A DNA stretch of 52,447 nt from Actinomycetes bacterium (GTDB lineage: Bacteria > Actinomycetota > Thermoleophilia > RBG-16-64-13): positions 1 through 52,447 of the forward strand of contig JAGXFW010000006.1 of NCBI GenBank assembly GCA_024637035.1, read 5' to 3'. The position numbers and the translations under genes were made by a program. Positions 4,286-31,540 of the stretch are shown piece after piece. The notes beneath the pieces are model-generated. The model made no database searches, was not told the DNA's origin, and was given only the letters and a program-made list of their open reading frames with translations. How positions within the stretch are numbered: the stretch's first letter is position 1; each line of letters opens with the position of its first letter.

Positions 4286-6343
4286 CTACCAGATGATGCC
4301 CTTCACGGTCGGTTGGATGGTCGTCCCGAGCCCTACGAAGTCGAGCGCGCGTACGTCGGCAGCGTTGGCGACCAAAGCATCTCGCATCGGGGCCGGCAGC
4401 CCCGTCCTCTGAACGAGCAGCAGCATCCCTCCATCGGCGACCAGATACGGCGCCACCACCAACGCATCGGGGAAGTTCTCGCCGGTGGCCAGAGCCACAT
4501 GCCCGAACGACAGACCCATGCTCTTCGCGTAGGCGGCCACGAGAGCGCCGGTGTGGTAGCGGTCGGTGCCCACCTTGAAGACGGCGTCGGTGACTGAAGA
4601 CGGAGGCAGCACCCAGGTGCCCACGACCAGGCCTTGGGTCACGCCCAGCACCTTGATCTCGTCCGCCGTCACCTTGGGAAGTGGGCCGGCCTGGGGAGTG
4701 AGGAGGATCGGCCAGCCCATCTTCGCCGCCAGCGGTGCCGCGGAGAGGGCGTCGGGGAACTTGTCCCCGGGCACGAGTACGATCCGTTCTATCTTCCCGA
4801 GCTTCGTCTTGAGTTCTTCTGCTAGCAGCATGGCTGTCCGGTAGCGGTCGGAGCCGCGGATGGTCTTGATCTGGGCACCGGGCAGTGCAGCCGCCAGCGC
4901 GGGCTTCACCGACTCCGCGAGGCCCACGAAGAACACCGTGCCCGGGTCGAGCCGCTGCAACTCCGCCACGACGGCGGGGGTGAGACCCGTGGACGGCGTG
5001 ATGACGACCGGGCCGCCGAAGGCCCGCGCAAGAGGCGCGCACGCCAGCGCGTCGGGGAAGTCGTCGCCCTTCACCAGGAAGACCACCGGGGCGCCAGTCG
5101 GGAAGGCCTTCTTCGAGACCATGATCGCGGTCTCGTAGCGATCCGCGCCGGTGAAGTCGTGGTAGACCGTGGGCAGACGTACGCCCGTGAGCACCTGAGT
5201 CGGCGCGAGTTTGTCGGCGGTGTCGCCCGTGCCGAGCTGCCCCTCCTCGTTCTCGCCCCAAGCCCATAGGGTGCCGTCAGCCTTGAAGGCGAGGCTGTGA
5301 TAGAAGGGCGCGGCGATCTCCTGCCAATCCACGCCCGTGCCGATCTGCGTCGGAGTAAGGCTCGGGGTAGTGCTCCCGGAGCCGAGTTGTCCGCTCGCGT
5401 TCGCGCCCCAGGCCCACAGGGAGCCGGTCGTCTTGAGCGCTACCGTGTGGCCGCCGCCGGCGGCGACGCTGAGCCAGTCTATGTCTGCCCCGATCAGGGT
5501 GGGGATGAGACGTTCCAAGATGTCCCCGGTGCCGAGTGCTCCACCACCGGCCCCGGTCCCGTTGTATCCCCACGCCCAGAGAGCACCGCCGGTCGTGACC
5601 GCCGCCGTGTGCGCTCCACCGGCGCTGATGGCCAGCCAGTCCGCCGCCGAACCGATCCGGGTGGGAGTATGGCGTTCTGTGGCACCACTGGTGCCAAGCC
5701 GTCCGTTGCCGTTCCAGCCCCACGCCCACGCAGATCCGTCGGCCTTCAGGGCAACGCTGTGCATACCGTTGGCGGAGATAGCACGCCAGTCGGTGGCTGC
5801 GCCGATTCGCGTGGGCACGAGGCGCTGGTTGGTGTCGCCGGTGCCGAGTTGCCCGAAGTAGTTCGCACCCCAGGCCCACAGCGAGCCGTCGGCTTTGAGG
5901 GCGAGCGTGTGGTTGCCGCCTCCGGCGATGCTGCGCCAGTCGGTGGCTGCGCCGACGCGGGTGGGGGCGAGGAGCGGGGCGGTGTCACCGCTTCCGAGCT
6001 GCCCGAAGTAGTTCTCGCCCCACGTCCACAAGGACCCGTCGGCCTTCAGGGCCAACGTATGCGCGCCTCCGGCGGCGATGCTGCGCCAGTCGGTGTCTGC
6101 GCCGATGTGGGTGGGGGTGAGACGCTGCGCTGTGTCTCCGGTGCCAAGTCGGCCACTGTCGTTGCGGCCCCATGCCCACAGAGAGCCGTCGGCCTTGATC
6201 GCCAACGAATGGCCGAGACCGGCGGCGACGGTCTGCGGAGATGAGAGGCCGCCGCTCGAGGCGAGGGCCGGGGTCGCCGCGAAGAGGACCAGAAGGCCTG
6301 CGACGATGAAGGACAGACGGCGGCACAGCGGGCGTGTTCGCAT
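4286..6343 (-). CDS. Secreted RCC1-repeat protein with CWB2 cell-wall-binding repeats
   Basis: A 685-residue surface protein. Residues 1-29 form a signal peptide (RR, hydrophobic core, PALAS). Seven RCC1-type repeats follow, each with a [17 protein letters not shown] core and a GQLGTGDT turn, predicting a seven-bladed propeller. The C-terminal 300 residues hold three cell-wall-binding repeat 2 modules (ADRYETA, SDRYRTA, TDRYHTG, each followed by a [12 protein letters not shown]-like segment), which in other Gram-positive bacteria anchor proteins to wall polymers. I chose the ATG at 6343 because GGGGGA lies 5 nt upstream and the signal peptide starts there; the open frame extends further upstream without a ribosome site. 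The function of the propeller is unknown. Upstream DNA has a TATACT box and an inverted repeat. Confidence 0.88.
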
Positions 6344-6386
6344 GAGATCCCCCATGAGGTGGTGGTCGATCGTTCGCGGCGGCTCA

Positions 6387-6392
6387 AGTATA
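6387..6392 (-). promoter_or_regulatory. Putative -10 box of the RCC1/CWB2 gene
   Basis: TATACT on the minus strand, about 44 nt upstream of the ATG at 6343. The -35 region (CTGGTC at 17 bp) is poor, which would fit an activated or alternative promoter. One copy of the GGTGCGCGGG repeat lies within the spacer. Confidence 0.35.
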
Positions 6393-6396
6393 CGGA

Positions 6397-6463
6397 ACCC
6401 GGTGCGCGGGACCAGGCACTCGGGCCCAGGTACTCGAGACCCGGTGCGCGGGACCCGCGCACC
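6397..6463. repeat. Direct repeats and near-perfect palindrome upstream of the surface-protein gene
   Basis: The 17-mer ACCCGGTGCGCGGGACC occurs at 6397-6413 and again at 6439-6455 (period 42). The second copy runs into an inverted copy, so 6443-6463 is a 10-bp perfect stem (GGTGCGCGGG/CCCGCGCACC) around one base. Between the copies are two related 14-mers beginning AGGCACTCGG and AGGTACTCGA. The arrangement looks like a multi-site operator next to the -10 box at 6392-6387. Confidence 0.55.
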
Positions 6464-6500
6464 GTGACCCAACCTATCGCGCGTCGGGAGTCTCGGTCAA

Positions 6501-11372: not shown

Positions 11373-12794
11373 ATGGATCGGGGGTTCGGAGCGATGGAAG
11401 CCGGGCAGGGCGGTCGAGGACTCACCTTGGTGGGCGGTCTGCTTCGGGAGACGCGCACCAAAAGTGGCCGGACCCTGGCCGAGACCGCCGAGGCGATGGG
11501 TGTGCGGTCCACCTACCTCGATTCACTCGAGAGGGGCGAACTGCATCGCTTCATGGGGCCCTCGTACGTGGAGAGCATGGTGGTGCGGTACGCCCTCTAC
11601 CTTGGTCTCGATCCCGACCGCGTGCTCGATGAAGCCGTAGGCGTCGAGATGACGAAGGACTCCGGGGCTGACTCCACCACGGAGCCCAAGCCTTCGGTGA
11701 CACGGCCGGTTTCCGCGAGCACGGCACCCGCCGCGACTCCCCGGGCTGCCGCACCTTCTGGGCAGGGTGCCGCCACGCCAGCCGCGCCGGTCGTACCTCC
11801 CACGCCTGCCGTACCTCCCACGCCTGCTGTGTCTCCCACGCCTGCTGTGTCTCCTGAGATCCCCCCGGCCGCGCGTCAGGCTCGACCGACTCCGCCGGAG
11901 ACCTTGGCGTCGAGCTTCGAAGCGGCGTCCATTCCCGGATTCCTGAGGGAATCCGTGACCGAGAGGGCGGCGGCGAAAGACTCGGTTCCCGATGTCTCGA
12001 CTGCCGCCGTGCCTGGGGCCGGTGTCTCGAAGTCCGCAGGGCTGATACCCGAGGGCGCAGAACCCGACGCTTCGGAAACACTTCCCCTGCTGCCCACTCG
12101 GCGGTCCGCTCGCGGGCCGGTGGTGCACTCGGCGACGGAGGCTGCGCCCGCGACCAGGCGCTCATCCCGGCGCAGCGGCGCGGATGTGGGCTCGGGCGGG
12201 GCCAAGAGCTCGGGCGGATCTCGGAGTTCGGGCGGGGCGGGCACCTCGAGCAGCGGCCGCGGTTCGTCGCCTCTGCTGTCCCGCTGGTGGATCATACTCC
12301 CCGTCATCACGGCGGTACTGGTGATCGGTTTCTTCGGCGCACGTGCCTTCGGGATCATCGGCGGCGACGACTCCTCCACGAGCCCGGTGACGCTCGCACA
12401 GCCGGCCGGCACGAGCACTACGCTGGCGGCTGACCTCGCAACCACCACATCAGGTCCACCGGTCACGTGGTTCCCCCCCGTGCAGACGCCTCCTGACGGC
12501 TGGTTGGCGGTGGGTATGCCGAGCACGGGCACCACCACGACCACCGGCTCGACGTCGACCACCGTCGCGACCACCACGAGCACCACCAGGCCTGCGGCTA
12601 CCACCACCACGCGGCGACCCACGACCACCACGCGGCGGCCCACGACGACGACGCCGCCTACCACAGCCAAGCCCACGACGACGACGCCTACTACGACCCC
12701 TTCCACCACCACTACCACGACCGTGCCACCTACAACCACGACGACTACTACCCCGACCCCCTCGACGACCATCGACACGCAGCCGCCTGGCTGA
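11373..12794 (+). CDS. RodZ-like HTH/transmembrane protein with Thr/Pro-rich extracellular tail
   Basis: 473 residues. Residues 18-90 are a helix-turn-helix of the HTH_25 type found at the RodZ N-terminus (LRETRTKSGRTLAETAEAMGV, YVESMVVRYALYLGLDPD). A Pro/Ala/Ser-rich linker with four PTPAV-type repeats follows, then one transmembrane helix at about 305-328 (WWIILPVITAVLVIGFFGA) and a 145-residue tail made almost entirely of Thr and Pro. Unlike its neighbour at 12926 it lacks the beta-rich RodZ C-terminal domain. In RodZ the HTH binds MreB; here the partner is unknown. Start 11373 is preceded by GAGAGAGG; an ATG at 11394 is an alternative. Confidence 0.78.
   Translation: MDRGFGAMEAGQGGRGLTLVGGLLRETRTKSGRTLAETAEAMGVRSTYLDSLERGELHRFMGPSYVESMVVRYALYLGLDPDRVLDEAVGVEMTKDSGADSTTEPKPSVTRPVSASTAPAATPRAAAPSGQGAATPAAPVVPPTPAVPPTPAVSPTPAVSPEIPPAARQARPTPPETLASSFEAASIPGFLRESVTERAAAKDSVPDVSTAAVPGAGVSKSAGLIPEGAEPDASETLPLLPTRRSARGPVVHSATEAAPATRRSSRRSGADVGSGGAKSSGGSRSSGGAGTSSSGRGSSPLLSRWWIILPVITAVLVIGFFGARAFGIIGGDDSSTSPVTLAQPAGTSTTLAADLATTTSGPPVTWFPPVQTPPDGWLAVGMPSTGTTTTTGSTSTTVATTTSTTRPAATTTTRRPTTTTRRPTTTTPPTTAKPTTTTPTTTPSTTTTTTVPPTTTTTTTPTPSTTIDTQPPG
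11793..11846 (+). repeat. 18-bp in-frame tandem repeat
   Basis: Three near-identical 18-mers (GTACCTCCCACGCCTGCC and variants with GTGTCT) follow each other, and a partial fourth begins at 11847. They code for the VPPTPA/VSPTPA repeats of the linker and should be prone to length variation. Confidence 0.7.
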
Positions 12795-12925
12795 TATCTA
12801 GCAACACCTTCCTTCATCTCTCCGACGCCGGATCGCGCGCAGTCACTCCGCGCACTGATCGGCGAAGGAATGCGACGCGCGGCAGGGAACAGTTATTGAA
12901 TGCGGCGTCGCGAGAGGAAGAGTCG

Positions 12926-14500
12926 ATGAACATGATCACTGAGATCGAGGGGCTCCCCGCGGTAGGCGAGTGGCTGAGGCGTTCGAGGACTGAGGCGGGC
13001 CGGTCGCTGGACGACGTGGCAGGCGCACTCGGAATCCGCACGGGGTATCTGGATGCTCTCGAGCGTGGCGAGCTCAGCCGTTTCTTCGGGCCGACGTATG
13101 TGGAGAGCATGGTAGTGAGGTACGCGCTCCACCTCGGCATCGACCCGGATGCGGTGCTGCTGCAAGCCGCGCGAGAGCCGGGGCCTTCGACCCCCTCCGG
13201 GACCAGACCGCGTCCGCCCGTAGTTCCACCGGCCGCCAGACGTTCGACCGTTTCCCCGGCCGGGAAGAACGGTGCCACGGCGGCGCCCTGGGCGACGGTC
13301 GGCCCGGTGCGCACGCCTACGGCCGAGCCGTCCTCTGCCGCTCCGGAGCCGCCGAGCGCTCCCGAAGTAGCCTCCATTCAAGATCATCCGCCCGCTCAGG
13401 CAGCACCTCAGCACCCGGAAGGGGTCCCTGGCTTCGGGGCGTCCACGCTGGGGAACGGAGACACGCCCGCCTGGCTTGCGGAAGACCGCCCTCCGACCCG
13501 TATGGACCTGCCGGATGGCCGGCGGTGGTCTCGGTCATCCGAGACGCGTCCGCCGGAGCACGGAGAAGCTGTCCCGGCCGCGGCGCCGCAGCCCGCTCGG
13601 TCCATCCCATCCACCCCGGAGGCACTCCTCGCCGACCTGGAACGCATCGCGGCATCGCCGGCGAGCGGGCGGCGATCTCTGGCCGACAACGACGTCCCCC
13701 CCGTGGTCCCCGAGTCGAGGGTGGCGCGCAACAAAGCTCGCGCCGTGGCCCGCAGAGGCGAGCATGAGTCCTCTTCGGCGCGTGTGGGCCGCACCGAGTC
13801 CGGTGCCGCCGACAAGGCCCGTGCCCGGGGCGACTTCCGTCTCGGCCCGCGGCTGTCGCGTGCGTGGGTGGTACCGCCTCTCGCGGTGATCCTGGCGGTG
13901 TTGGGGCTGTTCGGCGCGCAGCAGTTCGGTCTCCTGTCGCTGTTCGGCGGGGACGACGGAGCGACGAGCACGACTCTTCAGGCCGCGGTGTCGTCTTTCA
14001 CCACCACGCCATCCACTTCGACGGCGCCGTCGAGTTCCTCCGTCACGTCTGCCGCCGCCGCGGCGCCCCTGGTCTCATCAACCGAGTCGACGATGCTCTC
14101 CGCCACCACGACTACTGGTTCAGGCGCCCTGGTCCCTCCGGCCGCCGGCACGACCACGACGGCCTCATCGACTACCTCCACTGCACCCGCTCCTACCTCG
14201 ACCACCACTACGACACCCGCGACCCCCGCTGCGCCGTCAACGGGCGGCGGCTTCGCCCTCGTCTTCAAGGCGACCACGGCAGACGTGTGGGTGGAGTTGA
14301 CCTCCGTGGACACCGGGCGCGTGCTGCACGCGGGCGTCGTGGCCAAAGGCGGGTCGCTGGATGTGAAGGTCGATGGGCCGGTGAATGCGGTCATCGGTAA
14401 GCCGGAGGCGGTCGCTGTGACGGTCGACGGTCAGACGGTCGCCGCTCCACGGGCGTTCAAGTGGCGCATCACGTCGGCGGGCATCGAGCAGCGGGGATGA
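12926..14500 (+). CDS. RodZ-like HTH/transmembrane protein with C-terminal DUF4115-type domain
   Basis: 524 residues with full RodZ architecture: HTH_25 domain at residues 10-80 (VGEWLRRSRTEAGRSLDDVAG, YVESMVVRYALHLGIDPD), a long Pro/Ser/Arg linker, one transmembrane helix at about 314-336, a Thr/Ser-rich spacer and a C-terminal beta domain of about 80 residues (VFKATTADVWVELTSVDTG ... KWRITSAGI). RodZ links the MreB cytoskeleton to cell-wall synthesis in rods. No mreB is in the window, and the position next to a BY-kinase suggests a polysaccharide-related role. I chose the ATG at 12926 because GAGAGGAAG lies 6 nt upstream; a TTG at 12896 is less likely. The HTH segment is close to that of the preceding gene, indicating duplication. 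Confidence 0.8.
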   Translation: MNMITEIEGLPAVGEWLRRSRTEAGRSLDDVAGALGIRTGYLDALERGELSRFFGPTYVESMVVRYALHLGIDPDAVLLQAAREPGPSTPSGTRPRPPVVPPAARRSTVSPAGKNGATAAPWATVGPVRTPTAEPSSAAPEPPSAPEVASIQDHPPAQAAPQHPEGVPGFGASTLGNGDTPAWLAEDRPPTRMDLPDGRRWSRSSETRPPEHGEAVPAAAPQPARSIPSTPEALLADLERIAASPASGRRSLADNDVPPVVPESRVARNKARAVARRGEHESSSARVGRTESGAADKARARGDFRLGPRLSRAWVVPPLAVILAVLGLFGAQQFGLLSLFGGDDGATSTTLQAAVSSFTTTPSTSTAPSSSSVTSAAAAAPLVSSTESTMLSATTTTGSGALVPPAAGTTTTASSTTSTAPAPTSTTTTTPATPAAPSTGGGFALVFKATTADVWVELTSVDTGRVLHAGVVAKGGSLDVKVDGPVNAVIGKPEAVAVTVDGQTVAAPRAFKWRITSAGIEQRG

Positions 14501-14559
14501 ACTCTCCTCCGCCGCAGGCTCGCTACCGCGCTCGCGGCGGCGGGCGCGGCGGAGTCATC

Positions 14560-14595
14560 GGCGCACCTGTGGGTCCATAGGCGCACCTGTGGGTC
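14560..14595 (+). repeat. 16-bp direct repeat upstream of the first BY-kinase
   Basis: GGCGCACCTGTGGGTC occurs at 14560-14575 and 14580-14595, a 20-bp period (two helical turns). The second copy ends 17 bp before the -35 box at 14612, so it may be an activator or repressor site. Just upstream a GC-rich inverted sequence around 14508-14552 may end transcription of the previous gene. Confidence 0.5.
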
Positions 14596-14611
14596 GGACT
14601 CCCTGACCTGC

Positions 14612-14640
14612 TTGTCCGAGCCGCCCCGGTGCACTAGACT
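14612..14640 (+). promoter_or_regulatory. Promoter of BY-kinase 1, leaderless type
   Basis: TTGTCC (14612-14617), a 17-bp spacer and TAGACT (14635-14640). The ATG at 14649 begins 8 nt after the -10 box, so transcription should begin at or within a couple of bases of the start codon. No Shine-Dalgarno sequence is present. Confidence 0.6.
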
Positions 14641-14648
14641 TGGCCGCT

Positions 14649-16250
14649 ATGGATTCACCAAGGAATCAGAGCCAAGGCCAGCAGGAGACGATCGATCTCG
14701 GCGTGTTCATCCGGGTCATCCGGGAACGCCTTTGGTTCATCCTCGTCGTGGCCGCAGCCTTCGTAGCGGTCGTGCTGGTGCTTTCGCTGCTGACCACACC
14801 CAAATATCGCGCTAGCTCCCAGCTGCTGTACAAGATATCGAAGCTCGAACAGGCACTGACCGGCACGCAGGTGTTCGACGTGCGCGACGTCAACCGGGAG
14901 CTACAGACCGGAGCCGGGCTCGTGCGGCTCAAGGTGGTTGCCGAGGCCGTCCGCCGCGAACTCGGCGTGTCGTACAGCGACCAACGCATTCTCAGCATGG
15001 TCCAGGTGCGTCCGCAAAGTCAAACGAACCTCGTGGTGATCACCGCGACGAGCACCGACGCGTTCGAAGCCTCGCAGATCGCCGACGCCTTCGCGGAGCA
15101 GTTCGTCGATTTCCGGCGCACAGCTGATCGCCGCGCGGTTGCGGAGGCCGGTGCTTTGATCGAGCAGGAGATCCAGAGTCTTCCTGTGGCCGAGAGAGAC
15201 TCGGGGCGTGGGCTTATCCTCACCGACAAGCTCAAGGAACTCCAGATCCTGGAGGCTCTCCAGACAGGCGGATTCGAGATCGTGCAGAGGGCATCCGTGC
15301 CCGAACAGCCGTTCAGTCCCCGCCCGTTGCGCAACAGCGCTCTGGCGCTTCTCGTGGGACTTGCCGCCGGCGTGGCGGCCGCCCTACTGCTCGAGTACTT
15401 GGACCGGCGTATCAAGGATGAGGACACGCTCTCGGACGTCCTAGGTGTCCCCGTCCTGGCGCGCGTTCCGCAGGTGGGGAAGGTCAAGTGGATCAAGGAG
15501 AGCAAGGAACGTTCTTCGCTGCCGATCGGGTTCATGGAGGCCGATTCCCCGACGCTCGAAGCATTTCGGACCCTTCGCTCCAATCTTCAGTACTTCCAAG
15601 TGGAGAAGCCCCTCCGCTCCCTGCTTATTACCAGCGCGCTCCCTCGAGAGGGCAAGTCTGTCACCAGCATCAACCTTGGCCTGAGCCTCGCGCTCTCGGG
15701 TTCCAGGGTGGTGCTCATCGAGTCCGACCTGCGGCGGCCCATGTTGCACAAGTACTTGGAGCTGAGCAACGACATGGGCGTCTCGAACGTCTTGGCGGGC
15801 ACGCATAGCTTCTCCGAGGCCGTGCAACTCGTACGGGTTGAGAACCTCGCTTCGCCGCATTCGGGGGCAGGCAGACCGGGGGCTCGCGTGCTCAAGAAGA
15901 ACATGTACTGCGTCACCTCGGGGCCCATACCCCCCAACCCCACCGAGCTGATAGGCTCCGGCAAGATGGCCGACCTCATCGAGAGCGCCAAGGAGATAGC
16001 GGACTACGTGCTGGTGGACTCCCCGCCGCTCCTGTTGGTGGCCGACGGGCTCAGTCTGGCCGGTCTCGTCGACGGCGTGATCATCTCATCCCATATCGGC
16101 CACAGTAAGGTGGACGAAGCTCGGGAGGTGCGCCGAGCCCTTGAGCGCACGAGTGCTCGAGTGATCGGTTGCATCGCGAGCGGCGTATCGCGCGGCAAGG
16201 GCTACTACTACGGCTACGGGTATGGTGTGTCCGATGGCTCCACGAAGTGA
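14649..16250 (+). CDS. Polysaccharide co-polymerase/BY-kinase (Wzz-CpsD fusion), copy 1
   Basis: 533 residues. The N-terminal Wzz domain is bounded by transmembrane helices at about 28-48 and 231-248, with PEQPFSPRP just before the second. The cytoplasmic kinase part has Walker A ALPREGKS (331-338), the Walker A' IESDLRRP (357-364) and Walker B VLVDSPP (455-461). The tail GYYYGYGYG (518-526) is the autophosphorylated tyrosine cluster expected for bacterial tyrosine kinases. The family sets polymer length and controls export through cycles of phosphorylation. The promoter is of the leaderless type. Copy 2 at 37748 shares the architecture and long identical stretches such as NMYCVTSGP. The HTH gene at 16222 overlaps the 3' end. 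Confidence 0.92.
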   Translation: MDSPRNQSQGQQETIDLGVFIRVIRERLWFILVVAAAFVAVVLVLSLLTTPKYRASSQLLYKISKLEQALTGTQVFDVRDVNRELQTGAGLVRLKVVAEAVRRELGVSYSDQRILSMVQVRPQSQTNLVVITATSTDAFEASQIADAFAEQFVDFRRTADRRAVAEAGALIEQEIQSLPVAERDSGRGLILTDKLKELQILEALQTGGFEIVQRASVPEQPFSPRPLRNSALALLVGLAAGVAAALLLEYLDRRIKDEDTLSDVLGVPVLARVPQVGKVKWIKESKERSSLPIGFMEADSPTLEAFRTLRSNLQYFQVEKPLRSLLITSALPREGKSVTSINLGLSLALSGSRVVLIESDLRRPMLHKYLELSNDMGVSNVLAGTHSFSEAVQLVRVENLASPHSGAGRPGARVLKKNMYCVTSGPIPPNPTELIGSGKMADLIESAKEIADYVLVDSPPLLLVADGLSLAGLVDGVIISSHIGHSKVDEAREVRRALERTSARVIGCIASGVSRGKGYYYGYGYGVSDGSTK

Positions 16251-16800
16251 GAGCTCGGAATTCTCCGGCACGAGGCGGTTCGCGGGTCGGGTAGATGGGC
16301 GTGAGGTGGGGGCCGGCCGATTGAGGGCCGCTCTGACCAGCAGTGGGTCACCCGGCCTGGTTCTCCGCGACGTCCGTGTCCACCGTCGGCTCGATCCCGA
16401 AGACATCTCCGCCGCGCTCGGCGTACGGACCGAATACATCGAACCGGTCGAGGCCGACCGGGGCGACGAGATACTCGGCGCGAACCGCTCGATGAAGCTG
16501 ATAGCGGAGTACGCCGCGGCGCTTGGACTTGATGTACAGGTGATCGAAGACTGGTTCGCCGGCAGCCGGAGCTACGATGAAGATCACGACGAGCCGGAGT
16601 TCCCGGTTGCTCGGTCCGAATCGAACGCGCGTGCCTCCCTACTGTTCGACGATAACCGGAACGCTCGCGCGGTCGCCGTTGCATTCGGTCGTCCGGTGCC
16701 GAAGGTCGACAACGACCTCAGGCTGCGCAGATTCGGCGTTCTGTTCCTTCTGGTGGGGGTGCTCTTGAGCCTGATCTCCCTCTATCCGCAGATACTCTAG
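16222..16800 (+). CDS. Small HTH/transmembrane protein, RodZ N-terminal-like (third of four)
   Basis: 192 residues or slightly fewer. A degenerate HTH_25-like domain covers about residues 47-115 (RDVRVHRRLDPEDISAALGV, MKLIAEYAAALGLDVQVIEDW). A single transmembrane helix ends the protein (FGVLFLLVGVLLSLISLYPQIL), so there is almost nothing outside the membrane. The gene overlaps the end of the BY-kinase by 29 bp (ATG 16222) or 17 bp (ATG 16234), which implies translational coupling and a shared role. Neither start has a good ribosome site. A DNA-binding or scaffold role cannot be separated by sequence alone. Confidence 0.7.
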   Translation: MVCPMAPRSESSEFSGTRRFAGRVDGREVGAGRLRAALTSSGSPGLVLRDVRVHRRLDPEDISAALGVRTEYIEPVEADRGDEILGANRSMKLIAEYAAALGLDVQVIEDWFAGSRSYDEDHDEPEFPVARSESNARASLLFDDNRNARAVAVAFGRPVPKVDNDLRLRRFGVLFLLVGVLLSLISLYPQIL

Positions 16801-16811
16801 GGAGCAGTGCC

Positions 16812-17273
16812 GTGGTGCCGCCGGTAGATGACGCCGGAACCGGCTCCCAGGACCGAGCCACACGCACTCGTGGGGCACTCGCCCGTTTCCGTGACCCCGG
16901 TTCCGTATTGAAAGCGGCGCGGGTCAGCCGAGGCTATGATGTGCGGCAGGTGGGGGCGATCCTCGGCATGCGTGCGGACTTCGTCTCTGCCATGGAGGAG
17001 GGCCGGTTCGACCGGCTTCCGGGTCCCGCTTCCTATGCACCCGGCATGGTGGCGCGGTATGCCTTGTTCCTCGATCTGGAGCCGCGCCCGCTTCTTGAGC
17101 GCATCCCTGGGGCGCTGCCTACGCCACCCCCGCCATCCGCGGCGAGTCGCCGATGGACGTTGCCGTGGGGGGAGCGCACAGAGAATGAGCGACGGTTGGC
17201 GCTGTGGACCCGGTTCGTCGGAGGGGTATTGGTTGTTGCGGGCCTGCTGCTCGTGGCCTTGGCGCTGAGCTGA
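16812..17273 (+). CDS. Small HTH/transmembrane protein, RodZ N-terminal-like (fourth of four)
   Basis: 153 residues. The HTH_25-like domain at about 30-98 (SVLKAARVSRGYDVRQVGAI, YAPGMVARYALFLDLEPRPLLE) is closer to the first two proteins than to the third. A proline run follows, then a terminal transmembrane helix (FVGGVLVVAGLLLVALALS). The start GTG at 16812 has GGAG about 7 nt upstream and lies 11 bp after the previous stop, so it belongs to the BY-kinase operon. It has no extracellular domain and probably works on the cytoplasmic face, perhaps through contact with the kinase or the other HTH proteins. Confidence 0.72.
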   Translation: MVPPVDDAGTGSQDRATRTRGALARFRDPGSVLKAARVSRGYDVRQVGAILGMRADFVSAMEEGRFDRLPGPASYAPGMVARYALFLDLEPRPLLERIPGALPTPPPPSAASRRWTLPWGERTENERRLALWTRFVGGVLVVAGLLLVALALS

Positions 17274-17280: not shown

Positions 17281-17682
17281 TCAGCCGCGCTGGCGGAGCG
17301 CTATCCCACCTGTGATGCTCAGCACCCCGAGAGCAAGAGCGGCCAAGGGGAGGCCGGTGAACGGGAAACTGCTCCGCCCGCTCTTCTCCCCGCCCGCTGC
17401 CTTTGCCAACGCATCGGCGAGGGTGTCGCCCGAGTCGATGTAGGGCAGAGCCCCCTTCAGAAGGGTATCGAGCGCACTCAGCGTATCGGCTTGACCGTAC
17501 TGCCGTACGGAGGCGTCGTTCAGATAGGCGTCGATCTCGGCCTTGCTGTACGGGCCGTCGAGTCTGCCGTCGGCCACGTAGTCGTTGTAGATGTCCTGAG
17601 GCGTGGCGGCGAGAGCAGCGGATGCGAGCAGAAGCAGACCCGTCGCCCCGAGCACCAGAATGGCGAGAATCTTCCTACCCAC
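17281..17682 (-). CDS. Secreted FPFTG-tail protein, copy 1 (LPXTG-like surface anchor)
   Basis: 133 residues. Signal peptide: RK, a hydrophobic core and SAALAATP. The short mature part has TPQDIYNDYVADGRLDG, YSKAEIDAYLNDASVRQYG and a leucine-rich helix. It ends in SSFPFTG, a hydrophobic helix and RQRG, the order of a sortase sorting signal with FPFTG in place of LPXTG. I chose the GTG at 17682 because AAGGAGG precedes it by 4-5 nt and the signal peptide begins there. A TATGAT box lies 35 nt upstream. The same family recurs at 39920-40273 and as a broken copy at 39393-39649, each time beside a BY-kinase. No sortase is in the window, so anchoring is an inference. Confidence 0.75.
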   Translation of the reverse strand: MGRKILAILVLGATGLLLLASAALAATPQDIYNDYVADGRLDGPYSKAEIDAYLNDASVRQYGQADTLSALDTLLKGALPYIDSGDTLADALAKAAGGEKSGRSSFPFTGLPLAALALGVLSITGGIALRQRG

Positions 17683-17770
17683 GCATCCTCCTTCGGTTGA
17701 TGGCTTGTTCCCCTCAATCATACTACGTGCACTCTGCGGATACAGCTATGAGGTCGCTGCCGCGAAGCGC

Positions 17771-20356
17771 CTACGGGGTAGCGACTCGCTCGGTGAGGTC
17801 GAGGAGTGTTCGTGCCACCTGCGTGTTCAGGGGGTTGCGCTCTTGGGCTTTCGCTAGGTGCGTTCGGGCCGAATCTCTCAGTTCCTCGGGGGAGAGGCCG
17901 CGCAGGCGCGTCGCGTTAGCTACTGCCTCTGGGGTGAGGGCGGGGGAGTCGGAAGTGCTGCCGGCCTCCGTGGCGACACCCCCTTCCTCCAAGGCCTCCG
18001 CCAGCTGAAGCGCCGCCAGCGCCGCCTTGTAGTGCAGGGACCACGCCAGGGGATCCAATCGAACCGCCCTTTCTCGGGCGTCGAAGGCCAGGGCGAGGGC
18101 GTCTAGCCGTGCTCCCTGTCCCGCGGGGCGACCGGCGTCGGCCATGCGGGCGGCCGCCTCGTACACATCGGCAGTGGTGGTGAGCGGACTTGGCGAGATG
18201 GGGAGAATGCGCGCGGCCGTGGATGCCGCTCCCAGAGCCGCGACGCTGTCCGATGATGAGTTCGCCAGGGCGAGATCCTGGTAGCGCAAGGAGAGGTACT
18301 GTGGCGTGAGCGCAGCGATGGTCACCAATGATCCTGCGATCAGACACACGCGGAACCACGTGGAGAGCGGGCCGGGAGGCGAGAGCATGTTCGATCTGCC
18401 GGCGCGTCGTGTCGATCGTCGTTCGGAGGCGCGGTCGCCTCTCTCCCGCTTGTCACGATGGCGATCCGCGCGGCGGTACCCGGTGAACGGGGCGTCGGCA
18501 AAGAGGGGTATCGTGCCCAGATCCTCCACGCCCTGAGTCGCCGCCCTCTCGATTGGGTCGTTCAGGGCTTCGTACTCGGCGGAGTCGTCCCCGGTGCCGT
18601 CGGTGTCGTGGGACTCGTTGGCGGTGCGGTGCGTCGAGCCGCCGCGACCGATCAAGGCCGCCCACCGAGGCCACATGACGCCCGCCCGCGCGTCGATCGA
18701 CGCCACACTTGCGGCGAAGAGCAGAAGGGCCACCATCGCCACACCCGGCATGTGCCAGAGCCACTCGACGCTGCCGTGCACGAGCCAATAGGCGAAACCC
18801 ATGAGCAGTGCCACTTCCCAGGCGTATTCTGAGGAGTCGAGACCCCAGCGTCCACCCAGGAATTCCACATCAGGCCCACGCGCGGAATCCTCAAACCGGG
18901 GGTCGGCGGGGGGGAGGCGCTTTCTGTGCCGGAGCCACGTGTGCCGGGCTCCCTGCCAGGCGGCCGAGTAGCGGGCCCAGAGGATGCCCGCGGCGCCCAC
19001 GGCGAACGCGCCGAAGAGGAGGGCGGCACCCACGACGCCTGTCTCCGAGAGCACCCGGAGCTCGATGCTGTGCGGCTGCCTCACTTTCGCGTTCTTGTTC
19101 GTGCGCCATTCGTCGTGGTAGTACATGTAGTTGCCCGCGCCCACTCCGGTGACCGGCTCCGCCTCGAACGCCCTCCACGCGACCCGCCAGAGGTCCCAGC
19201 GTCCGCTCGTGGACAGAACCGCCAGGCGAGACGAGGTCTCCGCCTCGCGCATCGAACCGCTCTGCCCCGACAGCGTGGTTACTTGGTCGGCCGTGAAGCG
19301 TTCCCAAGTGGCGCCTAGCCACTCTCTAGGTTCGCCCACCCGGCGCTCGAATGCCTGGTAGCCCACGAACAACGACCCTGCGATCACGAGCACGGCGAGC
19401 GCGCCGAAAACCGCCTTCATGCGGCCGCTCACGTTCACCCATCGCTCCAAGATCGCCAGCACGAGGCCCACGCCGGTCGCCACCGCGACCGCGATCAGGA
19501 CGATGCGGGCGGCGGTCACGCCACCGATCTCCTCCGCGCCACGTGCCCAGTACTGGTTCAGGTCTGGGAACGCCCATACCACGAGGGCCGCAGGCGTGAG
19601 CAGGAACACGAGCGTGCGGAGACGGGCGGGGGAGATCGTGAACATGAGCAGAGTCGTGATGATCAGCGCGTAGAGTGCCCCACGCGATTGCGGTAGAACG
19701 GCTAGACAGATGAGGCCGGAGGCGGCACCGAGGGCCAAGCCTCGGACGGGTGCGAACTCGGCGCGGTCGGAGGCGAGCGACACCAGCGGCCAGAAGAGCA
19801 CGAGGAAGAGGGCGCCCGCGTTGTTCGGGTAGCTCACCGGATAGCTGAAGCGGGTGCCCTGGGTGAAGAGAAGCCCGATGTTCGCCGTGTCGATAGTCCC
19901 CAGACGATATGCCACGATGCCTACGATCGCCAGCCCACCCACGAGCACCAGATAGCGGAACGCGCGTCGGGCGTTCCGGTCGGTGAGGTAGGTGAGTGCC
20001 AGCGCCAGCACCACGAGGTAGAGAGCGGAGCGGCCCACCTCTTCGAATGCCGCGTCGCGCGAGCCCGCCCATAAGAACGACGCGGCCACCCAGACCACGT
20101 AGAGGGCGAACGAAACGAGCACGACGAACGAGAGTGCACGGGGGCGCCGCGGGTAGCCTGCGGAAAGGCCGGCCACCAGACCGAAAGCCGCGATGCCGAG
20201 GCCGGGTAGGAGCCATTGCCGGTGCAGGAACCCGCCGTATGAGAAGGCGAGGAGTAGCCACACTGCCACCAGACCGACGATCGGCGCGGCGTTCAGCACG
20301 CGCTCGCGGGGAGAGGAGGGCAAGGCGCCCGATCGCTGTTCTGCGGCTCCGTACAC
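17771..20356 (-). CDS. O-antigen ligase/polymerase-family membrane protein with C-terminal helical extension
   Basis: 861 residues. Residues 25-450 carry about ten transmembrane segments and the Wzy_C/WaaL-type periplasmic loop (SGRWDLWRVAWRAFEAEPVTGVGAGNYMYYHDEW, then QPHSIELRVLSETGVVGA is the conserved H-x-loop region). After two further membrane segments a charged linker of about 110 residues (many R, D, E) leads to another transmembrane helix and an alpha-helical tail with TPR-like spacing (DARERAVRLDPLAWSLHYKAAL, HLAKAQERNPLNTQVA). Members join or transfer polysaccharide chains at the outer face of the membrane. The start is GTG 20356, six bases after TAGAAT, so the mRNA may be leaderless. 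The TPR-like tail could bind partners. Confidence 0.82.
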   Translation of the reverse strand: MYGAAEQRSGALPSSPRERVLNAAPIVGLVAVWLLLAFSYGGFLHRQWLLPGLGIAAFGLVAGLSAGYPRRPRALSFVVLVSFALYVVWVAASFLWAGSRDAAFEEVGRSALYLVVLALALTYLTDRNARRAFRYLVLVGGLAIVGIVAYRLGTIDTANIGLLFTQGTRFSYPVSYPNNAGALFLVLFWPLVSLASDRAEFAPVRGLALGAASGLICLAVLPQSRGALYALIITTLLMFTISPARLRTLVFLLTPAALVVWAFPDLNQYWARGAEEIGGVTAARIVLIAVAVATGVGLVLAILERWVNVSGRMKAVFGALAVLVIAGSLFVGYQAFERRVGEPREWLGATWERFTADQVTTLSGQSGSMREAETSSRLAVLSTSGRWDLWRVAWRAFEAEPVTGVGAGNYMYYHDEWRTNKNAKVRQPHSIELRVLSETGVVGAALLFGAFAVGAAGILWARYSAAWQGARHTWLRHRKRLPPADPRFEDSARGPDVEFLGGRWGLDSSEYAWEVALLMGFAYWLVHGSVEWLWHMPGVAMVALLLFAASVASIDARAGVMWPRWAALIGRGGSTHRTANESHDTDGTGDDSAEYEALNDPIERAATQGVEDLGTIPLFADAPFTGYRRADRHRDKRERGDRASERRSTRRAGRSNMLSPPGPLSTWFRVCLIAGSLVTIAALTPQYLSLRYQDLALANSSSDSVAALGAASTAARILPISPSPLTTTADVYEAAARMADAGRPAGQGARLDALALAFDARERAVRLDPLAWSLHYKAALAALQLAEALEEGGVATEAGSTSDSPALTPEAVANATRLRGLSPEELRDSARTHLAKAQERNPLNTQVARTLLDLTERVATP

Positions 20357-25317: not shown

Positions 25318-26445
25318 CTACCGGCCGCGGTGGGCCTCTGCGACCCGCACCAGTTCTGACGCCACACCTTCCCATCGTCGCCGACCGCGTTCTCGGTGGT
25401 GTGTGTGGGCAGCGAAGGCCCCACGTGAAGCTGCCTGATACGTTGTAGGTGAGGCTGCCCAATCCAGCAGCCGATTGACGGCGGGGGCGACGAAGTCGTC
25501 GTTGCGATCGATGACGAGGCCGGCAGTTTCGGGCACCACTTCGCGGATGGCACCGCGATCGTAGGCGATGACAGGAAGCGCGTGCATCATCGCCTCGTGA
25601 ATCACGAGTGGCTCGGCCTCGTTCACATACTTGGTCGGGAATAGAAGAGCGTCTATCTCTCTGAAGAACGCCGTCTTGTCGGGGCCGTAGAGGGGCCCCA
25701 AGTAGGTGGTAGTGGTGAGCTCATCTAGCCGGCTGCGTATCGCTCGCTCCGTCTCGTCGTCCTGAAATGGGCCAGCCAGGCGAGCCTCGATGGGCTCGGC
25801 GCCCTCTTCGAGACGCGCTACCACGTCAAGGAACTCGAACACACCCTTTTCCGCTGCGATGTTGCCGAGGAAACCGATCGTCTTCAAGCCGACCCGTTCC
25901 GGCGGCGTGGTCCCGGCAGGCTCTAGTAGTAGCCCGGCGTTGGACACGGCGACGGTACGCCCCGCCGCGGTAGGGTAGGCGGACTCCAGTCTTAGAGCCA
26001 TCCCCTCTGAGAGGACCACGTGGGTCGTCTGCCTGCCGGCCGCAGCGATTAGCGCTCGGGTCAACAGATTGGGTCGATCGAGATAGGCGTAGCTGTGGTA
26101 GTGGAGGAATATCGGGACGGCTCGTATGCGGGCCACGATCACGAAGAGGAGCTCATATACCTGCCCGAGGCCGCCCGACACGCTCATGTACAGTGCCTCG
26201 GCCGCGGCGCGTGGTTCTCGGATGAACCGGCCAAGGCCGGCGAGCACTCGCGGAAGTCGGCCGAACCGCGCCCAGACTGCCCGATCCAACGACGAGGCTG
26301 CCACGTCGATCACCAGTACGGATGCGCCGATCGAGCGGAGTTGGTCGGCGACTGCCGCGTTGACGGCGGCCATGCCGTGTACCGGTGGGGGTAGGGGGCC
26401 GACGAGAACGACCCAAGGACTCGCGACGGTGGGAGGTGTCGTCAT
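25318..26445 (-). CDS. Glycosyltransferase, GT-B fold (family 4-like)
   Basis: 375 residues. N-terminal VVLVGPLPPPVHGMAAVNAAVAD is the G-P-P loop of family 4 glycosyltransferases. The C-terminal half has IGFLGNIAAEKGVFEFLDV and the E-x7-E region LLFPTKYVNEAEPLVIHEAMMHALPVIAYDRGAI, so the catalytic domain is complete. Its ATG overlaps the stop of the sulfotransferase gene upstream (ATGA), placing it last in the cysC-cysD-cysN-polymerase-sulfotransferase operon. It probably adds one sugar of the repeat unit that is later sulfated. The donor and acceptor are unknown. Confidence 0.87.
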   Translation of the reverse strand: MTTPPTVASPWVVLVGPLPPPVHGMAAVNAAVADQLRSIGASVLVIDVAASSLDRAVWARFGRLPRVLAGLGRFIREPRAAAEALYMSVSGGLGQVYELLFVIVARIRAVPIFLHYHSYAYLDRPNLLTRALIAAAGRQTTHVVLSEGMALRLESAYPTAAGRTVAVSNAGLLLEPAGTTPPERVGLKTIGFLGNIAAEKGVFEFLDVVARLEEGAEPIEARLAGPFQDDETERAIRSRLDELTTTTYLGPLYGPDKTAFFREIDALLFPTKYVNEAEPLVIHEAMMHALPVIAYDRGAIREVVPETAGLVIDRNDDFVAPAVNRLLDWAASPTTYQAASRGAFAAHTHHRERGRRRWEGVASELVRVAEAHRGR

Positions 26446-27416
26446 GTCGTCTCGGTCTCAGATTCGCCGAGAGGCGTGTCGTTCAGCCGTGCGAGGACGG
26501 CGCGCATCCTGTCCGATTCCTCCGCGAGAGATTCATAGAGCCAAGCCGCCTCGGACGAGAGCCTGGGATCCGATCCCTGCTCCCCCTCAATGGGTGCATA
26601 CATAGCATTGTGCTTTGTCCGCTTCGCCAGTCGGGATAGAGCGCCGGGAAGCCGCCTCTTCAGGGTCTTGCCGAGACGCTCCGCTGATCGAGATTGAAGA
26701 AGCAACGTCAACGGGGACCATCTCGGTAGGCTGGCTTCGTTGACTCTGGGGAAATCGTCTCGCCCATCGTGAGGCACATCGAGGAATGCCAGCACTTCTG
26801 AGTAGACTCTTCCCGGATCAGCGGCCAGGTTGTCCAACTCGATTATCATACGCTGGTCCGCGGGCACCAGCGACACGAATCTCTCGAGTTGGGTGCCGAG
26901 GGAGGCAACCTGCCGGTACTGGAGCAACTCCGGCGCGCGTGCGTGGCGTGGCACCCGCAACCCGCGGGCCCGGCTCTCCTGGGCCTCCCAGGCTTGTGCG
27001 ATATCGGGAAGGTCCTCGTGGAGGAATCTCAGCATCTGGAGGTAGAAGGAGAGCGCTAGATCGACCGGTTCCCGCACCATCGCGATCATCTTGGCGTCAG
27101 GGTAGGCTTCGAGGATCTTCGCAACAGCCACTTCCGACATGAGGTAGAGCGTCGATCCCTCTCCGACGGCCTTGTGTTCCGGTCGTGCGCGGGAGAACAG
27201 GGCGAGGTAATCCTCGAGGAAGCGGACGCCAGCGAGGCTGCGCACCCCTGGGAGGTCATCGCACCAGAAGAACGGCTCCTTGGGATCGGAGAAGAACACG
27301 TTCGGGTGCTCGCGGAGATACTCCGCGAGAGCGGTCGTGCCGCACTTGGGCGCGCCGATGATGAAGAAGTCTGGGATGCGCTCGTGATGTCGCGCCATCA
27401 TCGTGATCCGGCCCAT
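26442..27416 (-). CDS. PAPS-dependent sulfotransferase
   Basis: 324 residues. The 5'-phosphosulfate loop IIGAPKCGTTALAEYL is at 19-34 and the 3'-phosphate-binding segment MIAMVREPVDLALSFY at about 109-124. The family moves sulfate from PAPS to hydroxyl groups, often of glycans, leaving PAP. A full-length NodH/heparan-type fold is plausible, and there is no signal peptide or membrane segment, so it acts in the cytosol on lipid-linked intermediates or precursors. The start ATG directly abuts the upstream stop, and the downstream glycosyltransferase overlaps by 4 bp. Production of its donor is encoded at the head of the same operon. Confidence 0.9.
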   Translation of the reverse strand: MGRITMMARHHERIPDFFIIGAPKCGTTALAEYLREHPNVFFSDPKEPFFWCDDLPGVRSLAGVRFLEDYLALFSRARPEHKAVGEGSTLYLMSEVAVAKILEAYPDAKMIAMVREPVDLALSFYLQMLRFLHEDLPDIAQAWEAQESRARGLRVPRHARAPELLQYRQVASLGTQLERFVSLVPADQRMIIELDNLAADPGRVYSEVLAFLDVPHDGRDDFPRVNEASLPRWSPLTLLLQSRSAERLGKTLKRRLPGALSRLAKRTKHNAMYAPIEGEQGSDPRLSSEAAWLYESLAEESDRMRAVLARLNDTPLGESETETT

Positions 27417-28157
27417 TCACGCATCTGCATCGCGCTCCAGACGGCGATAGAGGGCGTCGGCCAGGCCTAGTAGGCTTGCGGCTCTGGAATCATCCCTCAT
27501 TGCGGCTTTCATGGCTTGCTTCGGGAGCGCGCGGGAGGATTCGGGCAGGGGCATCGTGTATTCGACGACCATGCCCTTTCGGGCTGCTGCGACTCTGCGC
27601 GCGATTTCCTCTATCTCCGCGTGCACTTCGCGCACGTGATCCTCGGTGTGTTCGAAGGGAGAGAACGAGGTGTTCGCCCTCAGGTTGAGAGCCCGCACCA
27701 CGGCGCCAAAATCTGTCACGACGGTCTCGAATCGTGCCACCGTGACATTCTGCCGGCAGTCCTCCACCGCGCTGTAGTAGTCGATGTAGTCGCGGAGAGC
27801 CTGACGCACGTTCGACGAGCGTCGATACAGCAGGTACGAGGCGGCGGTGTCGCCCGGATCGCGGATGATGGTGAGAACCGGGATGCCTCGGCTGGAGGCC
27901 GCCCGGACGATCGCAGGTGCGTGAAAATGATGCACAACGTCAACCGGCCGCGGCTGAGAGCGGATGAACGCGTAGGTGGCGAAGGTGTTGGCGCAGCGGG
28001 GGAACGCGTCGATCACCAACTCTGTGCCATGACCAAGCCTCTTGAGCGAACCATCGGCGGGTCGCCGCCGCGCGGAGACGAGTGGGAGGTAGATGGTCGG
28101 CGTCCTTTTAAGCCACGAAGTCGCCGCCCAGCGCGCGTTCGAAAAGGAGCGGATCAT
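27417..28157 (-). CDS. Second sulfotransferase-like protein
   Basis: 246 residues. The P-loop-like VIDAFPRCANTFATYAF (48-64) and the arginine segment LTIIRDPGDTAASYLLY (95-111) correspond to the two PAPS-binding motifs, with R in place of the usual K in the first. Compared with the neighbouring 324-residue enzyme, it is short. The gene starts inside the stop of the polymerase gene (ATGA overlap) and its stop is immediately followed by the next ATG, so it is within the same operon. Position and motifs support sulfation of a different hydroxyl of the same polymer. The substitution in the loop leaves some doubt about activity. Confidence 0.75.
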   Translation of the reverse strand: MIRSFSNARWAATSWLKRTPTIYLPLVSARRRPADGSLKRLGHGTELVIDAFPRCANTFATYAFIRSQPRPVDVVHHFHAPAIVRAASSRGIPVLTIIRDPGDTAASYLLYRRSSNVRQALRDYIDYYSAVEDCRQNVTVARFETVVTDFGAVVRALNLRANTSFSPFEHTEDHVREVHAEIEEIARRVAAARKGMVVEYTMPLPESSRALPKQAMKAAMRDDSRAASLLGLADALYRRLERDADA

Positions 28158-29563
28158 CGGGTCCTCCCCGTGACCACCGGGCGCAGATAGGAGGACACCC
28201 TGATGCGGCCTGCGCTCACGAAAACCACGATGGCAACCGACATGGCCGCGTTCATGAGCAGATCCGCGACCCCTGCGCTCAGATTCACGCCGATCATAGT
28301 GGTCGCAAGGGCGTCCAGGGTGAGGACGTACACGAAGATCGCTCCGAGATCCCGTTCAAGGAGGTACGGACGGAACGCCCGATAGTATGTCGCCAAGGCC
28401 AGCCCGTACAGGAGCATCCCCACCGCTACGCCGAGGAAGCCGAAGTTCCAGTAGAGTTCCACGGGAAGGCTTGGCGGGTGGCCCCCTCCGCGTGTGGTTT
28501 CGTAGGCACGCCCGTATACCTCAGATCCAAAACGATACCCCAGGCTGGTCTGCGGCTTGTCCAACCACATCGATCGGGGGATGGGAGCGGTCATCCAGCT
28601 CACCAAGCTCTCACCGTTCAGGTAAGGCACGTCCTGCGGGACTTTCTGCGCCAGAACGCTGGCCTTCTCAATGCCAACGAAGTTGCCGCTCGCGAAGATC
28701 TTCTCCGCGATCTGTACGGGTGAGGCTACCTCTGCGAGCTGCTCGACACTTCGCGCTCCCTCTCTGAGGCCGGTCATGGCGACGACCGCGACCAGTACGA
28801 CGACGAACGGGAGGACGATTCTTCCGGGCTTCAGTCGGCGGGTCACGGAGCGGAGAGAGCCCGTATAGTAGAGGATGATGATCGCCCCGAGAGCCAACCA
28901 CACGAGTTGACTGCGGACACCCGAGATCACCGGCCACATCGAAGCGGCGATGCCTGCTGCGACGAGGATGAGTCCGTTCCAGGACACCAAGCGCCTCTTC
29001 TCGGCGAGAAGCATGATGAGCGCCAGGAGGAAGGCGGGACGGCCCAATGAGGCGAGCCAGCGATGATACCCGAGTGCTATGCGGGTCCCATCCACGAACT
29101 CCGCGCGTTTGGCTGAGACGGTCCACACGCTCGTGATGCTCGCGCCCACGGCAGAGAGGAAGAGTGCCATGCCGGCCAGAGCGAGCAAGGCGAGTAGGCC
29201 GGCGAGGAACAGGGTGCGTTTCGAAGACCACTCGCCGAAGGCCACGAGTGGGATTCTCGGGAATCGGCTGTCGTGCGCGACAAGGTACCCGGCGACGAGG
29301 GCGGTCATGGCGATCGCCATCATAAGAGCGCCGTCGAAGAGGACGCTCTGCGGGTAGCTCAGGAGCAGGTCGGTGTGCTTGATCGGATCGGTGAGGGCGA
29401 TCCATGCGGCACGCCCGGTGACCCCTAAAAAGACGTTGAAGGCAACAAGCGTGAGTGGTTCGAACAGATCGTAGTCACTGCCCTGAACGAACTTCACCAA
29501 CACGGCGATGCCGAGGATTCCCAGGGGGATGAAGCCGAGGATCACTATCAGCGCGCTCTCCAC
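28154..29563 (-). CDS. Wzy-like polysaccharide polymerase
   Basis: 469 residues with about eleven hydrophobic segments across the whole length and no soluble domain, typical of O-antigen/capsule polymerases. A large external loop holds PIPRSMWLDKPQTSLGYRFGSEVYG and GGGHPPSLPVELYWNFGFLG, a pattern seen in the O-antigen polysaccharide polymerase family. It would join lipid-linked repeat units outside the membrane. The start is GTG 29563, 42 bp after cysN. The following sulfotransferase overlaps by 4 bp. This links polymerization with sulfation genes in one transcript. Confidence 0.8.
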   Translation of the reverse strand: MESALIVILGFIPLGILGIAVLVKFVQGSDYDLFEPLTLVAFNVFLGVTGRAAWIALTDPIKHTDLLLSYPQSVLFDGALMMAIAMTALVAGYLVAHDSRFPRIPLVAFGEWSSKRTLFLAGLLALLALAGMALFLSAVGASITSVWTVSAKRAEFVDGTRIALGYHRWLASLGRPAFLLALIMLLAEKRRLVSWNGLILVAAGIAASMWPVISGVRSQLVWLALGAIIILYYTGSLRSVTRRLKPGRIVLPFVVVLVAVVAMTGLREGARSVEQLAEVASPVQIAEKIFASGNFVGIEKASVLAQKVPQDVPYLNGESLVSWMTAPIPRSMWLDKPQTSLGYRFGSEVYGRAYETTRGGGHPPSLPVELYWNFGFLGVAVGMLLYGLALATYYRAFRPYLLERDLGAIFVYVLTLDALATTMIGVNLSAGVADLLMNAAMSVAIVVFVSAGRIRVSSYLRPVVTGRTR

Positions 29564-29605
29564 GACCTAGTGCGCCTTTCGTGGATGTTTCGACACCGGG
29601 CGGTC

Positions 29606-31540
29606 TCAGCCCTTGGGCAGGACGCCGCGCTGTTCAAGAAGCGCACAGGCGCGCATCACGTGGACGTCGGTATCGCTCGTGTCCGCGATCTCGGGAACGT
29701 GAAGGTGGGCGAACCCGCGTGTAGCGTCTTTGTCCCCCACGCCCACGACGACGATCTCAGCCCCGTCGAGGACTGCCTCAAGCAGGGCAAGGTCGCTCTC
29801 GCCGATGTCGATGGCGGAGGCTACGAGGATAAGCCCTGAATCGAGGAACAGGTGCGCAGTCTCGGCGAAGCGCCTAAGGTGCTCCTCGCGGTTCTGGTGC
29901 AGGCTGTCGGGCGCCCGTTGCTTGAGGTCGGCGTCGATTCCGTACACCACGCTTCCGATGCCGAGGTAGTAGGTGGAGCGTCCCTGTGAGAAGAGCTCGC
30001 GTTCGAGGGCCTTGGCCAGGTCCTTCTTGCGCGAGTCGGCAGAGCCGGTGAAGAGTACGAGCGCGGGCTTCTGTCCGTACTTGCGGCTGCGTTCTTCCAT
30101 CGAGATGCTGCCGCGCTCCCACTTGACGTTCCGCAGGAGCACCGTGTCGCGCACCCAGGCCTGGTCGTCGATCAGGGTGTCCTGCACGATGCCGCCACCA
30201 CTGATCTCGTAGTCGTCGATCAGCACGAAGCGGCTGGTCTCGGTGAGTTCGGCGTCGATGTCGAAGGCCACGGGCCGCTCGCAGCGAAGCACGCACTCGG
30301 CCACGTCGTGCCGGCCGATGCGGTCGGCGTCTGGGATCGCCGCCAACGTGGAGGCATCGATCACGCGGGTGATCTCTTCCAGCCACACCGGCACGCGCAG
30401 GGTGCCCACGCGCAGCAGGTACTCCTTGTCCTTGGTCATCGCCTCGCGCGCGAGCCAGAACACACTGGCCCGCAAACGGGTGGCCACGCGGGGCGAGGGC
30501 TGGCCGGCGCGGCAGGCCAGCTGACCCCGGTTCACGTAGAGCTGTTCCTTGAGAGTGAAGCCGATGGCGTCGGTGGGGCGCACCGCGGGCACCGCCGAAC
30601 CCTCGGGCAGTGGCGGGAAGGTCTCGATCGAGGCCACTTCTGACTTCTTGCCTGAGGGGTAGAACACCACCTCGTCGCCCACGGCGATGCTGCCGGCAGC
30701 CACGGTGCCCGCCACGATGCGGCGGGAGTCACCGAAGCGGGTGAACTTGTACACGTCTTGCACGGGCATGCGGAAGGGCAGCTCGAGGTCGGCGTGCACC
30801 TCGCCGAAGCCGTCGAGCACCTGGAGCACGGTGGGTCCGTCGTACCAGGGCATCAAGGCGCCGGGGGTGGCGATGTTCTCGCCTTCCACGCCGCTCACCG
30901 GCACGAAGGCGGCCGGTTCCACACCGAGACCCTGGAGGAAGGCCGTGTACTCGTCGCGGATCTCGCGGAAGCGCTCCTCGTTGTAGCCCATGAGGTCCAT
31001 CTTGTTCACGAGCACAGCCACCTGGTCGATGCCGAGCATCGAGAGCATGTAGCCGTGGCGCCGGGAGTTCTCGCGCACGCCCTCCTGGGCGTCGATCACG
31101 AGCAGGGCGGCCTCGGCCCGGGCGGCGCCGGTGATCATGTTCTTGAGGAACTCGATGTGACCCGGAGCGTCGATGATGATGTAGTGGCGCAGCGCGCTCT
31201 TGAAAAACACGCGGGCCGAATCGATGGTGATGCCCTGGGCCTGCTCGTCTTTGAGCGCGTCGAGCAGGAAGGCGTACTCGAACGGTTTCGAGGTGCGCAC
31301 GCAGAGGTCTTTCACCTGCTGCAGCTTGCCGTCGGGCAGACTGTTCGTGTCGGCCAGGAGGCGCCCGATCACCGTGGACTTGCCGTGGTCCACGTGGCCC
31401 ACGATCACGATGCTCATGGCGGTGGAGGCAGCGTCGGCGGCAGGCGCGGCGTCGGCGGCGGCACCCATGGCGCCGGGCGCCCCGTCGCTCGAAGCGACGG
31501 CGCTCTCGCCGAGCGTGCCGGTCAACGTCTCTTCCTTCAT
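29606..31540 (-). CDS. cysN: Sulfate adenylyltransferase large subunit CysN with degenerate APS-kinase-like domain
   Basis: 644 residues. An Ala-rich leader of about 40 residues precedes the EF-Tu-like GTPase: G1 GHVDHGKST (48-56), the DAPGH switch and NKMD. Beta-barrel domains 2 and 3 follow. CysN with CysD makes APS from sulfate and ATP, driven by GTP hydrolysis. From about residue 470 a second domain resembles APS kinase ([21 protein letters not shown]), but the GxxGxGKST loop has become GSADSRKKD and the DGDN motif GIGS, so it should be inactive as a kinase. A normal CysC is encoded two genes upstream. The ATG directly follows the TAG of cysD. Confidence 0.93.

Follow-up and report, generated by a model that had tools for sequence, protein, structure and literature searches.

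Four genes that encode RodZ-like membrane proteins with a helix-turn-helix (HTH) domain (hereafter A–D) surround a single bacterial tyrosine kinase (BY-kinase) gene in contig JAGXFW010000006.1 of assembly GCA_024637035.1, from an uncultured actinobacterium (genome G000). The 52,447-nt stretch analysed is hereafter called the window (Table 1). As the initial annotation had described, open reading frames (ORFs) are present at all four positions, and they share two features of canonical RodZ: an HTH_25 domain above the Pfam cut-off of 24.6 bits (A 46.6, B 56.3, C 29.5 and D 52.3 bits) and one membrane segment after it (by hydropathy, residues 305–323 in A, 313–331 in B, 171–189 in C and 135–153 in D). 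AlphaFold models of C and D also show these transmembrane (TM) helices. The RodZ_C beta domain was correctly assigned to the second gene alone: Pfam matches it in B (41.2 bits) and not in A, C or D. The parts beyond the membrane also fit the first description; they comprise 150 residues in A, forming a Thr/Ser/Pro-rich tail (71% Thr/Ser/Pro/Ala), 193 in B, 3 in C and none in D. Linkers rich in Pro, Ala, Ser and Thr exceed 200 residues each in A and B. Because their membrane segment lies at most three residues from the C-terminus, C and D look tail-anchored.

Table 1. Features at and around the BY-kinase gene (positions in the window).
Feature	Position	Strand	Remarks
Gene A, RodZ-like	11373..12794	+	HTH_25 at 11439-11624; long P/A/S/T linker; TM about 12285-12341
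Gene B, RodZ-like	12926..14500	+	HTH_25 at 12974-13156; linker; TM about 13862-13918; Thr-rich stretch; C-terminal RodZ_C beta domain
Fused Wzz/BY-kinase	14649..16250	+	Probable start ATG 14649; ORF begins with TTG 14640
Gene C, divergent HTH_25	16222..16800	+	HTH_25 at 16363-16539; C-terminal TM about 16732-16788
Gene D	16812..17273	+	HTH_25 at 16908-17090; C-terminal TM about 17214-17270, which is the protein end
Small secreted protein	17281..17721	-	C-terminal FPFTG, hydrophobic segment and RQRG, sortase-signal-like (sequence inspection)
Wzy_C O-antigen ligase/polymerase-type membrane protein	17771..20356	-	Pfam match; counterparts near the kinase in relatives checked

The kinase gene lies between B and C, and the overlap reported for the third gene is real: the start of C lies 29 bases inside the kinase gene, and that of D 11 bases beyond the end of C. 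This overlap and close spacing suggest that the kinase, C and D genes form one operon. A conserved block immediately 5' of ATG 14649 (TTGTCC-17-TAGACT, by inspection) suggests that the kinase has a leaderless start of its own. For B, the initially annotated ATG is likelier as the start than TTG 12896, at which the mechanical ORF opens. A 20-bp tandem duplication (CATCGGCGCACCTGTGGGTC, 14556–14595) 5' of the kinase gene was considered as a conserved operator and rejected because it is lacking in the sister species; the 16-bp core of this repeat has no other occurrence in the genome.

The sequence features of a BY-kinase are present in the kinase: a Wzz/TM part, Walker A (SALPREGKS), a variant Walker A' (IESDLR), Walker B (VLVDSPP) and a C-terminal Tyr cluster (GYYYGYGYG). 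Pfam reports Wzz, weak GNVR and AAA/ParA-type matches, and the protein aligns to CapA1/CapB and Wzc kinases (E 2e-33). In its Wzz part, ATPase motifs and Tyr cluster it thus resembles the Wzc/CapAB-type polysaccharide co-polymerases, from which it differs in being flanked by RodZ-like genes and in a Walker A' (approximately 15712–15740) that begins with Glu and not Asp (ESDLR). The same Glu is found in 14 of the 15 kinases checked in the order, with Asp in G013 alone. A second Wzz/BY-kinase gene (37748–39370, + strand) is present in the same locus; its product is 53% identical to the first, and it has no HTH partner. In the kinase tree the HTH-adjacent kinases cluster without forming one clade, and the second kinase of the window falls among them.

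Profile and fold comparisons both rank RodZ structures first, and the cluster proteins are therefore RodZ relatives. Searches of the PDB with a B profile and with a C + D profile return CT009 of Chlamydia (4gqm) and YmfM of Staphylococcus aureus (3fym) as top matches, while the RodZ of Thermotoga maritima (2wus) is matched by the B profile and, weakly, by the C + D profile (E 0.014). The HTH domains of C and D are modelled with a per-residue confidence (pLDDT) of around 90 or more across most of the domain. The closest folds to the C model are 3fym (Z 10.8) and 2wus (Z 10.4), with the next structure at 8.2; those to the D model are 2wus (Z 10.3) and 3fym (Z 10.2), with the next at 7.7. The D model matches the MreB-bound RodZ structure 2wus over 68 columns at 1.1 Å. 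Kinship of the HTH regions with RodZ, on which the initial annotation had staked its interpretation beforehand, is thus borne out by RodZ being matched first by profile.

Five HTH_25 genes of G000 score over the cut-off: the four of the cluster and a fifth encoding a canonical RodZ, which adjoins rimO, pgsA, thpR and recA (neighbours named by inspection). The genome also encodes a full canonical MreB (505 bits). Because both proteins are present, the cluster is no stand-in for an absent MreB or RodZ, and the earlier suggestion that it may act in place of MreB finds no support.

In Escherichia coli RodZ, F60 and Y64 are needed for MreB binding, and their equivalents in T. maritima and Chlamydia behave alike (PMC4047632; PMC6946637). 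We compared these positions between 16 cluster proteins from seven genomes and 17 canonical RodZs of the order. The Y64-equivalent column contains Phe in all canonical RodZs and Met, Ile or Leu in all cluster proteins; the F60-equivalent position is Tyr in A, B and D and Arg in C. Two columns past the Y64 equivalent, the canonical Arg gives way to Val, Ala or Trp, and in the next column the canonical Thr, Ser or Gln is replaced by Arg in A, B and D (14 of 16) and by Glu in C. Helices 2–3 contain further differences that are fixed or nearly so (Glu to Ala, Gly or Ser in column 21; Asp, Asn or Glu to Gly in column 37 of A, B and D). The surface has been rewritten and then conserved, in the pattern that a new shared partner would produce. 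The gene neighbourhood points to the kinase as this putative partner. Compared with RodZ (YfgA/YmfM; e.g. 2wus, 3fym and CT009), with which it shares HTH_25, one TM helix and, in B, RodZ_C, the cluster is distinguished by (i) several extra copies beside a BY-kinase, with the canonical RodZ encoded separately, (ii) an MreB-contact pair that is not kept and (iii) the lack of an outer domain in C and D.

Alternatively, A–D could be extra functional RodZs: by binding MreB they would draw the polysaccharide kinase to the elongation machinery and so couple surface-sugar and wall growth. The fold shared with 2wus, the Tyr that A, B and D have at the first of the two contact positions and the MreB encoded in the genome are consistent with this. 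However, no cluster protein keeps the second contact aromatic, and nearby positions that are kept in all 17 canonical RodZs are altered, which makes this explanation unlikely. The other half of the earlier suggestion, a scaffold acting together with MreB, is made less likely by the same lost aromatic but keeps some plausibility through the Tyr retained at the first position in A, B and D.

A second alternative, which we consider doubtful, is that A–D are membrane-tethered DNA binders, either transcription regulators of polysaccharide genes or RocS-like membrane–nucleoid links that communicate with the BY-kinase. Their HTH domains are XRE-type, and for C and D the idea is attractive by functional analogy with Streptococcus pneumoniae, where the capsule BY-kinase CpsD works with a membrane-anchored HTH protein, RocS (PMC7022226). 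However, RocS combines a MarR-like HTH with a MinD-like membrane-binding helix (PMC7022226), whereas the cluster has a RodZ-type HTH, a predicted TM helix and genes beside the kinase; the Pfam matches of the cluster HTHs are to HTH_25/XRE families, with none to a MarR family, and RocS is compared by description only. The nearest structures are RodZs (Z about 10.2–10.8) and not DNA-bound repressors (8.2 or less), and the HTH domain of E. coli RodZ does not bind DNA (PMC6946637). Moreover, the net charge of the cluster HTH domains is 0 to −5, against −1 to +6 for six XRE-like domains of the same genome, and the sister species shares no operator-like repeat in the upstream region.

We also analysed the distribution of the cluster in samples of the order (18 genomes), class (199 genomes) and phylum (396 genomes), with the cluster genes of relatives obtained by targeted extraction. 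Non-canonical full-length HTH_25 genes are present in 7 of the 18 genomes of the order, and all 16 of them have a BY-kinase gene no more than about 5.2 kb away. This indicates that the linkage is not due to chance, and the co-occurrence with BY-kinases that the initial annotation proposed to check is seen within the order. Kinase-adjacent B appears in all seven of these genomes (four genera), D is kept beside the kinase in three genera (the window's genus, g7 and g8), C is confined to the window's genus, and the full four-gene set is found in this genus only (two genomes). Genera g7 and g8 contain B and D, with D directly upstream of the kinase and not downstream as in the window, while g12 contains B alone. 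Conservation of gene order in relatives therefore holds in part: the full order recurs in the sister species G006 and B accompanies the kinase in four genera, but D has moved in g7 and g8. Similarly, the four-protein composition around a BY-kinase is real but is a genus-level elaboration of a wider core of B and the kinase, joined by D in three genera. Homologues of the small secreted protein stay adjacent to the kinase in related genomes. Between B and D, G007 and G009, from two related genera, carry an M23-peptidase-like secreted gene with SLH-like repeats on the opposite strand (L059 8237–10315, + strand; L061 6631–8679, − strand; motif by inspection), and G008 carries an M6 peptidase gene.

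In the stretches retrieved around the order's other kinases, including the one at 37748, no HTH gene was found. Genomes of the class sample mostly contain one HTH_25 gene each, the highest number at E 1e-6 being that of G000; among the 38 class genomes with at least two, none has such a gene close to a kinase, the nearest being about 8.5 kb away (G190). At the phylum level, no match to the D profile exceeds 72 bits except the window's own D (238 bits), a result that covers the sampled genomes and similar sequences. The next matches look like canonical RodZs by length and score, most of them judged without individual inspection. A scan of named genomes returned only the same order and one alphaproteobacterial canonical RodZ.

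The HTH tree was built on the 62-residue domain and its deep branching is weak, but the groups of A (98/91), C (100/99) and canonical RodZ (100/99) hold. A joins the B of the same genus (90/79) and is likely a local, genus-specific duplicate of it, while C groups with D at 61/71 only and may be derived from it. Between the two species of the window's genus, dN/dS is 0.32 for A, 0.37 for B, 0.25 for C, 0.30 for D and 0.10 for the kinase; all four HTH genes are under purifying selection. Drifting RodZ duplicates that are functionally unconnected to the kinase might simply have accumulated in this polysaccharide locus because it is variable. Such ordinary accumulation would suit the low-complexity, fast-evolving linkers and tails and the restriction of A, C and the four-copy state to one genus, but it is quite improbable given an association that persists over four genera despite diverged sequence, consistent subfamily-specific residues, purifying selection and an operon-like overlap with the kinase gene.

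There is about an even chance that A–D represent a RodZ-derived subfamily of single-pass membrane adaptors that specifically serve the BY-kinase/Wzx-Wzy-type exopolysaccharide machine encoded next to them, in which both partner and function are predictions. More tentatively, this family may have left the MreB cytoskeleton to become a regulatory or scaffolding partner set of the BY-kinase polysaccharide machine, with its HTH domain now directed at the kinase and no longer at actin. The grouping of RodZ relatives around the kinase, with a rewritten actin-binding patch, suggests that parts of the cell-shape apparatus were put to new use in organising or controlling how surface sugars are assembled. 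In such a mechanism, (i) the HTH domains would be cytoplasmic and would have given up the RodZ-type use of MreB; (ii) they would attach to the kinase, or to one another and a further cytoplasmic partner, and so hold or gate the kinase at the membrane; (iii) the long A and B proteins would reach outward through Thr-rich stalks, and B also through its beta domain; and (iv) C and D, which are short, look tail-anchored and probably share a transcript with the kinase, could be cytoplasmic modulators or phospho-targets. Expansion to four copies would be a recent elaboration within one genus.

Several observations weigh against a dedicated kinase adaptor. The loss of one aromatic could still permit MreB binding, particularly as A, B and D retain a Tyr in place of F60. 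The second kinase of the window lacks an HTH partner, and such a partner is therefore not obligatory. B and D are split by another gene in g7 and g8 (on the opposite strand in G007 and G009), so that B and the kinase may be expressed separately in these genera. Also, the family is present in few genomes, all of which are draft assemblies or metagenome-assembled genomes by their titles.

How BY-kinases are placed and switched on is only partly understood, and no cytoskeletal adaptors are known to us, or from the open-access literature searched, to be dedicated to them. If the adaptor reading is true, a branch of RodZ that keeps the fold and has a rewritten actin-contact helix would be an adaptor reused, and the question of BY-kinase placement and activation would become testable by a few pairwise interaction assays. 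The initial annotation knew of no described system with this composition, and a search of the open-access literature, with subscription papers mostly uncovered, likewise found nothing relevant that links RodZ paralogues to a BY-kinase or HTH_25/DUF4115 proteins to capsule. Phosphotyrosine data from E. coli were considered as a link between RodZ and BY-kinases and discarded, the text matches being spurious.

Elsewhere in the window, a sulfotransferase gene adjoins CysNC-like, PAPS_reduct-domain and APS-kinase genes within the polysaccharide locus (26442–33204, − strand), and the exopolysaccharide is therefore probably sulfated. A gene at 4286–6472 (− strand) encodes a secreted protein in which RCC1-like repeats are followed by apparent cell-wall-binding (CWB2-type) repeats, as judged by inspection of its translation.
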